From: Actinomycetota bacterium
GTDB lineage: Bacteria; Actinomycetota; Actinomycetes; Propionibacteriales; Propionibacteriaceae
DNA length: 64,000 bases
Assembly (NCBI GenBank): GCA_020161755.1
Contig: JAIUOS010000005.1
Coordinates: 62,001-126,000, forward strand
Direction: 5' to 3'
Numbering within the stretch: the stretch's first letter is position 1; every line of letters starts with the position of its first letter. The notes beneath the pieces were generated by a model. That model did no database searches and was not told the origin of the DNA. It worked only from the letters and a program-made list of their open reading frames with translations. The position numbers and the translations under genes are program-made. Positions 25,504 to 28,826 of this stretch are shown here, piece by piece.

Positions 25504-26100
25504 CTATTCCACCGCGTCGATCCGGCGCCGCTCGGTCACCAGCAGATCGACGTTGCGGTCCCAGTCGTCGGTCGGCAGGTCGTCGAGTACTTCATCGTCA
25601 TACAGCAGCAGCCCGAGCCGAGTGTCCGGACGGGCGTGGGCGAGCGCACGGTCGTACCAGCCGCCGCCGGTGCCGAGCCGCCGCCCGTCCGGGGTGCCGG
25701 CGAGCCCCGGCAGCCAGACCCAGTCGGCCTCACCGAGCGACTCCGGCCCGAGCGGCGGTCCGGGCGGGGACGGGATGCCCAGCGGGCCCGGGACGAGGTC
25801 GTCGGCGCCGGTGTACCAGGCCCAGCCGGGTTCGCGACGCAGCACGGGCAGCAGCACGCGGACGTCCGCCAGCCGCAGGTACTCGATCAGGGCCGCCGTG
25901 TCCGGCTCGCCGCGAAGAGAGGCGTAGGCGGCCACCACGCCCGCACCCGCACACGCGGCGAGGGCGCGGGTGGTGCGGGCGTCGTCGGCCGCCGGATCGG
26001 ACGCGCGGGACGCGCGCGCCGCGCGCAGCCGCGTCCGCAATTCGGCCTTCGCGGCGGATGTGGAGCCTTGCGGCTGGCCTTCCGGGCCCGCGCTGGTCAT
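25504..26100 (-). CDS. 5-formyltetrahydrofolate cyclo-ligase
   Basis: A 198-aa cytoplasmic enzyme converting 5-formyl-THF to 5,10-methenyl-THF with ATP. The C-terminal ATP/folate motif GTGGGWYDRAL near residues 141-151 is the family signature; VAAYASLRGEPDT and VLLPVLRREPGWAWY are also typical. I start it at ATG 26100: a TACGAT box lies 6 bases upstream, implying a leaderless mRNA, and no ribosome site fits in the 17-base gap to the divergent glp gene. It probably leads the row fmdB-SAF-mscL. Confidence 0.92.
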   Translation of the reverse strand: MTSAGPEGQPQGSTSAAKAELRTRLRAARASRASDPAADDARTTRALAACAGAGVVAAYASLRGEPDTAALIEYLRLADVRVLLPVLRREPGWAWYTGADDLVPGPLGIPSPPGPPLGPESLGEADWVWLPGLAGTPDGRRLGTGGGWYDRALAHARPDTRLGLLLYDDEVLDDLPTDDWDRNVDLLVTERRRIDAVE

Positions 26101-26105
26101 TGACT

Positions 26106-26112
26106 TATCGTA
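26106..26112. promoter_or_regulatory. Shared -10 element of a divergent leaderless promoter pair
   Basis: The seven bases TATCGTA read as TATCGT on the plus strand and TACGAT on the minus strand. Each -10 box is exactly 6 bases from the start codon it serves (ATG 26118 plus, ATG 26100 minus), so both mRNAs would be leaderless and start about 18 bp apart. No Shine-Dalgarno can fit on either side. Confidence 0.65.
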
Positions 26113-26117
26113 GGCCC

Positions 26118-27401
26118 ATGCCCCTATTCGCCCGCCCGAAAGAGGACCTCGCTCCGGAGGCCGAGGTCGCGCCGCCGCGCGCACCGCGCCGCCTCGATGG
26201 TGGCTCGGACGCGGACGTCCGCCGCTGCCTGGAGGCCCACCGCGACTTCCTGCTCGGCCAGGTGGAGAGCCTGCACCCGTTCGGCATCGGCCTGCTCGAC
26301 TCCGCCGGCCTGACGCTGTGCGAGTCGATCGTCTCCGACCTCGACCTGCCGACCTTCACCACCGCCATCACCGACGGCTGGGCGGTGCGCCACGCCAACC
26401 TGGTGGGCGCGAGCCCCGAACTCCCGGTGATCCTGCCCGTGGTCGACGAGGTCGCCGCCGGCGGCTACCGCGGCGCGCCGCTGCCCAAGGGCGCGTGCGT
26501 CCGGGTGGCGGCCGGGGCGCCGATCCCCGAGGGCGCGGACGCGGTCATGCCCGCGGCCGAGGGGCTGGCGGTCGGTGACGAGGTGCAGTTCACCGGGGAG
26601 GTCGACCACCTGGCCAACCTGCGGCTGGTCGGCTCCCGGATCAGCGACGGTGAGGAGCTGGTCGAGAAGGGCGCCGTGCTGACCCCGCGGGTGCTGGGCC
26701 TGATCGCCGAACTCGGTCACGACAAGGTGCTCGCCCGGCCGCGTCCGCGGGTGGTGGTGCTCACCGCCGACTCCTCGCTGGTCGAGCCCGGCCTGCCGCT
26801 GACCCGTCCCTGGCAGGCCTACGACGCGTGTACGACCCTGCTCGCGGCCACCGCCCGCGTCGACGGTGCCCAGGTGTTCGCCGGCGGCATCGTCCCGGCC
26901 GAACCCCGGGCGCTGGCGACCGTGCTGGGGGAGCAGCTGATCCGTGCCGACCTGCTCCTGCTGGTCACCGAGGTCACCGACGAGTTGGTCGGGATGTTCA
27001 CCGACGCGGACGCGATCGACGTCGCCACCTGCGAGGCGCTGCCGGGCCGCCAGCTGTTCGCCCTCGTCGGTCCCGAGCAGTCGCCGGTGCTGGTGCTGCC
27101 GCCCGGGCCTGTGCCCGCGTACCTGGCCTACCTTCTGCTCGGGCGTCCGCTGGTGCAGCGGCTGGCCGGCGCGGCCGACACGTGGCCCTCGGAGGAGATC
27201 GCCCCGGTGACCGTCGAGCTGCCGCCCGACCCGGCGTCCCGGGTGCTGCTGGCCGAACTGAGCGAGCGCGGCGTGACCCCGTTGGCCGGTGAGGAGCCCG
27301 GCGCGGCGGAACTCGCCCGCGCGAACGCGTTGCTCCTGCTGCCGGCCGACGGCGAGCCGGTGCCGGCCCACGGCGACGTCACCTGCTGGTTGCTCGACTA
27401 G
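26118..27401 (+). CDS. glp: Gephyrin-like molybdotransferase Glp (degenerate MoeA)
   Basis: A 427-aa MoeA-fold protein. Early regions are conserved (ITDGWAVR near residue 85, GAPIPEGADAV near 133), but catalytic motifs are lost. The usual TGDEL is TADSSL (216-221), the SGGxSxG loop is replaced by VTEVTDELVG, and LPGNP is LPPGPVP. This fits the actinobacterial Glp, which in Corynebacterium binds FtsZ and the membrane protein GlpR and helps cell division. The neighbours here are a RimJ-like acetyltransferase and SepX/GlpR, as expected. A role in division rather than molybdenum cofactor synthesis is therefore inferred. Confidence 0.85.
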   Translation: MPLFARPKEDLAPEAEVAPPRAPRRLDGGSDADVRRCLEAHRDFLLGQVESLHPFGIGLLDSAGLTLCESIVSDLDLPTFTTAITDGWAVRHANLVGASPELPVILPVVDEVAAGGYRGAPLPKGACVRVAAGAPIPEGADAVMPAAEGLAVGDEVQFTGEVDHLANLRLVGSRISDGEELVEKGAVLTPRVLGLIAELGHDKVLARPRPRVVVLTADSSLVEPGLPLTRPWQAYDACTTLLAATARVDGAQVFAGGIVPAEPRALATVLGEQLIRADLLLLVTEVTDELVGMFTDADAIDVATCEALPGRQLFALVGPEQSPVLVLPPGPVPAYLAYLLLGRPLVQRLAGAADTWPSEEIAPVTVELPPDPASRVLLAELSERGVTPLAGEEPGAAELARANALLLLPADGEPVPAHGDVTCWLLD

Positions 27402-27410
27402 CCGACGTCG

Positions 27411-28037
27411 ATGGCGGGAACCTCGTGGCCGGTGCGACTGGCCCATGGGCCGGTGACCCTGCGTCCGCTGCGACGCCGCGACGAGGGCGACTGGGCACGC
27501 ATCCGTGACCGCGCGGGGTCGTGGTTCCGGCCGTGGGACTCCACGCGTCCGCCCACCTCGCCCGAACCCAGCCTCACTTTCGGCCAGCTGGTCACCACTT
27601 TCGCGGTCCGGGCGCGGCGCGGCCAGATGCTGCCGTGGGCGGTGGAGTACACCCCGCCCGGCCAGGAGAAGCCGGTGTTCGCCGGCCAGGTGACCGTGTC
27701 GGGCATCACCCGCGGGTCGGCGTGCTGGGCACAGGTGGGCTACTGGGTCGACCCGAAGTGGGCGGGGCGGGGGATCATCCCGACCGCGGTCGCGATGGCC
27801 TGCGACTACTGCTTCGACGTGCTCGGGCTGCACCGCATCGAGATCGCGATCCGTCCGGAGAACGCCAACAGCCTGGCCGTGGTGCGCAAGCTGGGCGCCC
27901 GGTTCGAGGGACGCCGGGAGCGCTACATGCACGTCGACGGGGCCTGGCGCGACCACGATGTATTCGTGCTCGAGGCCGGGCCCGAATCCGGTGCGGTGCT
28001 GGCGCGCTACGAATCGCAGCACCGGCCGGTCGGCTAA
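27411..28037 (+). CDS. RimJ-like GNAT N-acetyltransferase
   Basis: A 208-aa acetyltransferase. The GNAT core shows VTLRPLRRRDEGDW at the start, a beta-4 strand AQVGYWVDPKWAGRGI and the acetyl-CoA loop GRGIIPTAVAMACDYCF. NSLAVVRKLGARFEGR lies near the end, typical of the RimJ/RimL ribosomal-protein or general protein acetyltransferases. It sits 9 bases after glp and 60 before sepX; the glp-rimJ-sepX order is conserved in actinomycetes. The substrate is unknown. Confidence 0.88.
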   Translation: MAGTSWPVRLAHGPVTLRPLRRRDEGDWARIRDRAGSWFRPWDSTRPPTSPEPSLTFGQLVTTFAVRARRGQMLPWAVEYTPPGQEKPVFAGQVTVSGITRGSACWAQVGYWVDPKWAGRGIIPTAVAMACDYCFDVLGLHRIEIAIRPENANSLAVVRKLGARFEGRRERYMHVDGAWRDHDVFVLEAGPESGAVLARYESQHRPVG

Positions 28038-28097: not shown

Positions 28098-28826
28098 GTG
28101 GGAATGACCGGGCTGATCTTCGCAGTGATCGCTGCCGCCTGGTTGATGTACCTGATCCCCTACTTCCTGCGCAGCCGCGGCGAGGACTTCGCCGAGGAGG
28201 CCGCGGTCGAGATCCCGTTCAGCCCGTCGGTGACGATCGTCCGTAGTGGCACGTCCCTGGCCGAGGCGGACGAGGGGACGGCGGCGGTGTCCACCCCGCT
28301 GACCCGCCGGTCGATGCTGCGCGACCTGCACCTGCGTGACCTCGAGGCCGCCCAGCGTCGCCGCCGGGTGCTGATCTTCCTGCTCGTCGTGCAGTTGATC
28401 GTGGCCGCGCTGGCCGGATTCGGCATCGGGGCGTGGTGGGTGGCCGTGATCCCGGCCGTGCTGATCACCGCGTTCCTGGTGGTGGCGCGGTTCAGCGTCC
28501 GGGCGATGCGGGCGGACCTCGCCCGCTGCGCGGAGGCGATCCGGGAGTGCCCCGACGAGGAGACCGTGGCGATCTCGCTCACGCCTTCGGAGGTGGCCGA
28601 GCACGAGCACTCGATCGAGCTGAGCGTGCCGGTGAACCGGGTGGCGTCGCTGTGGGACCCGATCCCGATCACGCGTCCGACGTACGTCTCCAAGCCGCTG
28701 GCGCCGCGCACCGTCCGCACGATCGACCTGTCCGCCCCGGTGCTCACCCCGGGCATCCCGGTGACCGCCGACCCGATCGAGGATCCGGCCGCCGCCGAGC
28801 CCGACGCGCAGGAGGACGTGGGCTGA
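28098..28826 (+). CDS. Divisome protein SepX/GlpR
   Basis: A 242-aa membrane protein. An N-terminal helix (GLIFAVIAAAWLMYLIPYFL, residues 5-24) is followed by a cytoplasmic segment with RRSMLRDLHLRDLEAAQRRRRVL. A helical hairpin (about residues 93-135) and a long C-terminal tail come next. The N-terminal helix plus LRSRGEDF is typical of the actinobacterial SepX/GlpR family, a membrane partner of Glp and FtsZ in Corynebacterium and a divisome factor in Streptomyces. The family name rests on pattern and position after glp-rimJ. Confidence 0.82.
   Translation: MGMTGLIFAVIAAAWLMYLIPYFLRSRGEDFAEEAAVEIPFSPSVTIVRSGTSLAEADEGTAAVSTPLTRRSMLRDLHLRDLEAAQRRRRVLIFLLVVQLIVAALAGFGIGAWWVAVIPAVLITAFLVVARFSVRAMRADLARCAEAIRECPDEETVAISLTPSEVAEHEHSIELSVPVNRVASLWDPIPITRPTYVSKPLAPRTVRTIDLSAPVLTPGIPVTADPIEDPAAAEPDAQEDVG

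Follow-up and report, generated by a model that had tools for sequence, protein, structure and literature searches.

The 17-bp gap between the divergent genes for 5-formyltetrahydrofolate cyclo-ligase (5-FCL, minus strand) and a Glp-like protein of the MoeA family (glp, plus strand) is most probably a single bidirectional housekeeping promoter (probability about 0.85), the TANNNTA core of which would be used in both directions to yield two leaderless mRNAs. In the window (the whole stretch of DNA analysed, 64,000 nucleotides), the gap (TGACTTATCGTAGGCCC, 26101-26117) is framed by the two start codons in the arrangement CAT-N5-TATCGTA-N5-ATG (26098-26120), and the -10-like hexamers TATCGT and TACGAT overlap on opposite strands at 26107-26111 (Table 1). 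A preliminary description of this DNA had given 17 bases between the start codons and 6 bases between each hexamer and its ATG, and these figures are exact in the sequence. It had also proposed that the two genes share one symmetric -10 element in a doubly leaderless layout, a reading now strongly backed by conservation across the family and further by the change of the seventh core base where the 5-FCL start is absent.

Geometry of the site and identity of the genes

In the proposed mechanism, the 7-bp TANNNTA core would accept RNA polymerase in two opposite orientations. One would yield a glp mRNA beginning with the A of the glp ATG (26118) or right beside it, the other a 5-FCL mRNA beginning with the A of its own ATG (26100) or right beside it, so that the starts predicted from the start-codon positions are 18 bp apart. 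As both mRNAs would be leaderless, neither would need a ribosome-binding site. A TANNNT motif some 10-12 bp ahead of the start codon is reported to mark leaderless genes (PMC3160421), and TAnnnT is described as the vegetative -10 element of Propionibacterium acnes (PMC3848588). At the present site, TANNNT lies at the leaderless distance on both sides, and judging from the sequence, polymerase would start at both ATGs and both mRNAs would be translated without a leader. The gap was also said to leave no room for ribosome sites, and reading its sequence agrees with this, as no Shine-Dalgarno-like purine run fits before the ATG of 5-FCL or of glp.

The sigma-70 scan yielded no promoter made up of two hexamers, and no good -35 element was found on either side of the core. 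The hexamer TTGACT (26100-26105) was considered as a -35 element and rejected, because it abuts the -10 element without a spacer and the scan returned no two-hexamer promoter.

The pattern CAY-N5-TANNNTA-N5-RTG had one match in the window, compared to none in 100 shuffles. In the whole 4.08-Mb genome, both the ATG/ATG form and the more permissive CAY/RTG form occurred at this single place, and the 5/6 and 6/6 spacings were absent. The one-sided pattern TANNNT-N6-ATG was found five times in the window (1.35 expected), and two of these five matches are the 5-FCL/glp site itself.

Table 1. Positions of the genes and predicted promoter elements in the window.
Feature	Position	Strand	Basis or remark
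5-formyltetrahydrofolate cyclo-ligase gene (5-FCL)	25504-26100	-	TIGR02727, 114.7 bits (cut-off 84.9); PF01812
5-FCL start codon ATG	26098-26100 (read 26100-26098)	-	predicted leaderless transcript start 26100
Shared symmetric core TATCGTA (TANNNTA)	26106-26112	both	7 bp; sequence, and TANNNTA in 76/76 paired loci
-10-like hexamer TATCGT, for glp	26106-26111	+	ends 6 bases before the glp ATG; TANNNT in 109/109 loci
-10-like hexamer TACGAT, for 5-FCL	26107-26112 (read 26112-26107)	-	ends 6 bases before the 5-FCL ATG
glp start codon ATG	26118-26120	+	predicted leaderless transcript start 26118
Glp-like MoeA-family gene (glp)	26118-27401	+	best NCBIfam match NF045515 (Glp), 259 bits (cut-off 475); PF03453
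GNAT acetyltransferase gene, 3' of glp	27411-28037	+	PF13302; open reading frame positions
SepX/GlpR-like membrane protein gene, two genes 3' of glp	28098-28826	+	NF050099, 143.8 bits (cut-off 150)

The best family for the Glp-like protein was NF045515 (Glp), with a score that did not reach the curated cut-off, and the SepX/GlpR-like protein fell slightly under the cut-off of its own best match, NF050099. Glp and glpr genes have been reported to be co-localised (PMC10522489). Based on its best family and on the GlpR-like gene downstream, both below curated cut-offs, the Glp-like protein is a putative divisome protein. The genome also contains a second MoeA-family gene outside the window (G000:C5:52916-53800), the product of which is 33% identical to the Glp-like protein; its presence fits the window copy being the Glp paralogue. 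The GNAT acetyltransferase gene and glp are probably part of one transcript. With the Glp-like and the SepX/GlpR-like protein each below the threshold of its best-matching family, NCBIfam may set its cut-offs too high for this bacterial family.

Conservation of the core and competing readings

Across the window's family, the sequence and spacing of the site are conserved, and the seventh base of the core depends on whether a 5-FCL start codon stands at the place. Among the 156 genomes of the family with a Glp match, 110 loci, picked by score and genus coverage, were examined; one of them (L094, 153 bases) lacked a start and was set aside, so that 109 loci were usable. The glp starts were chosen by their N-terminal pattern and not by the promoter. 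Loci were called paired when an in-frame 5-FCL ATG or GTG lay 16-20 bases from the glp start, a definition in which the seventh base was not used. The Glp scan of the named genomes gave one locus. In the first 30 loci, CAY-N4-5-TANNNTA-N5-6-ATG was present in 27, with Glp identities down to 38%, and across the family loci identity to the window's protein falls to about 34-40%. TANNNT was found 6 or 7 bases before glp in all 109 usable loci, and glp thus looks leaderless throughout the family.

The seventh base, which completes the -10 element of the opposite strand, was A in every one of the 76 paired loci, compared to 7 of the 33 unpaired loci, where G (20) and T (6) made up the remainder (Fisher's test, p = 5e-19, uncorrected for kinship). 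The preferred hexamer differed as well, with TATCGT or TATGGT in 64 of the 76 paired loci and TAGGGT in 15 of the 33 unpaired loci. Among the seven unpaired loci keeping A, the 5-FCL start had moved inward in four (L025, L026, L028, L041), in two the start codon stood there but did not match the frame in which the gene was read (L033, L093), and no 5-FCL was found in the last (L027). Where a 5-FCL was present, CAT or CAC 5 bases to the left of the core was in frame in 74 of 77 cases, compared to one third expected by chance (uncorrected for kinship), indicating that it is the real 5-FCL start codon.

As related genomes share their ancestry, the association was also followed on a Glp tree with 70 proteins, 65 of which had both traits. 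Pairing changed nine times on this tree and the seventh-base A six times. Eight independent pairs could be compared: four to five went in the expected direction, none against it, and three to four showed no difference (sign test, p = 0.06-0.125). The direction was therefore uniform, but this kinship-corrected test was too small for significance and its support is weak.

Four other readings of the site were weighed. Doubtful, and better placed than the two considered last, is a nearly leaderless variant, in which transcription would be shared as proposed and one or both mRNAs would carry a leader of a few bases or use an internal start codon. The distance from core to glp does vary (6 bases in 39 and 7 bases in 37 paired loci), the N-terminus of 5-FCL is poorly conserved, and in four loci its start is shifted inward while the core stays; yet the 5-FCL start codon stands exactly 5 bases from the core, in frame, in 74 of the 76 paired loci, and drift would be expected at this position if it were not the start.

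Comparably improbable is a reading in which the A of each ATG would be both the first base of its own mRNA and the complement of a -18T of the opposite promoter, with the orientation chosen at each binding event, so that the two directions would exclude each other and the 17-bp unit would set the ratio of the two proteins. A T at -18, here the complement of the A of the other start codon, should favour such promoters, but only 24% of the unpaired loci have T there, which gives no visible sign of selection for it, and the idea that each start codon supplies the -18T of the opposite promoter was set aside as an explanation.

It is considerably less probable that the hexamer serves glp only, 5-FCL having its promoter within glp and an ordinary leader, and that the symmetry is incidental. 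The unpaired loci, where TANNNT before glp is kept for the sake of glp alone, and the four loci in which the core is kept although the 5-FCL start codon has moved would agree with this. However, glp has no need of the seventh base, which is G or T in 26 of the 33 unpaired loci and yet A in all 76 paired ones, and the 5-FCL ATG is not preceded by a Shine-Dalgarno-like run.

Least probable of all is an operator palindrome bound by a regulator of both genes: the symmetry is often extended in paired loci, to CTTANNNTAAG or similar, and divergent genes often share an operator, but unpaired loci hold a plain TANNNT at leaderless distance in the same place, the flanks vary (the base just before the core, for instance, is T in 33% and C in 62%) while what stays invariant matches the positions of a -10 element, and the shared -10 reading calls for no unknown protein.

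Partners of 5-FCL in other families

The partner of 5-FCL was followed in 20 loci from three other families of the same order (f2, f3 and f4). A 5-FCL gene was found in 19 of them, never adjoining glp. The gene facing it was UGPase in 7 of 8 f2 loci and in 6 of 6 f3 loci, and in 5 of 6 f4 loci the facing gene carried what we take to be a GalU-type motif. In all six f3 loci, the -10-like hexamers of the facing 5-FCL and UGPase genes overlap. Three of these loci have the core TAGCCTA, and their predicted starts lie 18 bp (L124, L130) or 19 bp (L122) apart, and the other three have the wider overlap AGCCTACGAT, with predicted starts 23, 24 and 24 bp apart (L121, L128 and L132, respectively). Both genes were in frame in four of the six, 5-FCL alone in L132, and neither, by the test applied, in L128. 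Overlapping -10 elements between 5-FCL and the facing gene were found in none of the 8 f2 or 6 f4 loci.

In a wider sample of 30 loci, drawn from 112 genomes in which 5-FCL had a match, an in-frame leaderless-like signal was present only in the window's own locus and in one f3 genome. Outside the order, the usable part of the other 28 loci contained none, a weak and provisional negative given that at least four of these 28 could not be used (L221, which a contig end truncates, and L209, L210 and L225, where the stretch did not resemble a gene start).

In the window itself, a UGPase gene (PF01704, 22254-23645) lies about 1.9 kb beyond the end of 5-FCL, with MscL, CpaB-like and zinc-ribbon genes between them. 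Compared with f2 and f3, where UGPase faces 5-FCL, this is a rearrangement, and it may have brought 5-FCL and glp together.

The preliminary description had further suggested that the element would link folate metabolism to a divisome gene. Nothing was found that shows co-regulation, and this part was dropped, as the partner of 5-FCL differs by family (UGPase in f3). The overlapping -10 elements that 5-FCL shares with UGPase in f3 argue that its partner is whichever gene adjoins. Bidirectional promoters of Escherichia coli are reported to show no competition at basal activity, and at high activity, activation of one direction tends to repress the other, that is, competition rather than co-activation (PMC12825309). 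Since this work predicts that the two directions hardly affect each other at low activity and compete at high activity, the arrangement is unlikely to serve to raise folate metabolism and division together. The likeliest meaning of the shared element would be sequence economy at low-activity housekeeping promoters, and not a dedicated folate-division switch.

Relation to known promoters and other occurrences of the pattern

Divergent transcription from a symmetric -10 element, which the preliminary description had cited as known in bacteria, is indeed documented. Bidirectional promoters with a shared -10 have their divergent starts 7-25 bp apart, 18 bp being the commonest published distance (PMC12825309, PMC10268837) and 10 and 23 bp being also common (PMC12825309). 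The 18-bp spacing has been explained by the -7T of each promoter pairing with the -11A of the other (PMC10268837). The predicted distances of 18-19 and 23-24 bp found here fit these published ones. The 5-FCL/glp site resembles the promoters described in E. coli and Salmonella by Warman, Grainger, Wade and colleagues in its symmetric -10, its (predicted) starts 18 bp apart and its reciprocal -7T/-11A. Unlike them, its predicted transcripts begin at the start codons, the promoter core forms the entire intergenic region, and it separates two conserved genes and persists across a family. A promoter shared by two leaderless genes is well supported here, and it would be an unusually clear case of the known bidirectional type with 18-bp spacing, shrunk so far that it fills the gap between the genes.

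It is well established that Actinobacteria have leaderless genes with TANNNT close to the start codon (PMC3160421, PMC3898074, PMC3848588). Each half of the 5-FCL/glp site is such a TA-led signal, the difference being that two of them are here superposed on opposite strands. The nearest precedent is prpD/Rv1129c of Mycobacterium tuberculosis, divergent neighbours for which both mRNAs have been mapped as leaderless; their reported starts (1254630 and 1254510) are 120 bp apart, and they therefore share no -10, in contrast to 5-FCL and glp. A shared -10 between two leaderless genes was not found described in the available portions of the literature on the point (including PMC3898074, PMC5741613, PMC6448022, PMC3160421 and PMC3848588), a scope outside which the founding study of 2021 falls. 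Such cases may well exist in archaea, among which leaderless genes are common.

Evidence for bidirectional promoters comes mostly from transcript maps, in which the second RNA may be noise, and evolution offers an independent test here: every relative with both starts at the site has the base that would serve only transcription the other way, and most others have G or T instead. The natural variants within the family (ATG or GTG, 18 or 19 bp, paired or unpaired) would be well suited to measuring how polymerase is split at a symmetric -10, between two real genes and uncomplicated by untranslated leaders.

Concerning the genome-wide level, the pattern matched in 105 of 197 genomes of the window's family, compared to 145 for a composition-matched control (AT for TA), and much of this matching is probably coding sequence. 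As the pattern is not enriched over this control, no claim is made that doubly leaderless pairs are common. Among the 30 listed loci with the pattern, 13 were 5-FCL/glp.

The same 5/5 pattern was also observed between two long open frames at L153 (genome G075) and L151 (genome G212). The two pairs, one at each site and named by eye, are a CofC-like frame facing an acyltransferase-like frame and a CrcB-like frame facing a YCII-like frame. In addition, in genus g34 (L141 and L142; similar in G119, G185 and G194), a LysR-like regulator faces, across TANNNTA, a frame of 13-20 residues that carries the motif YWT[YH]G and possibly encodes a leaderless small peptide.
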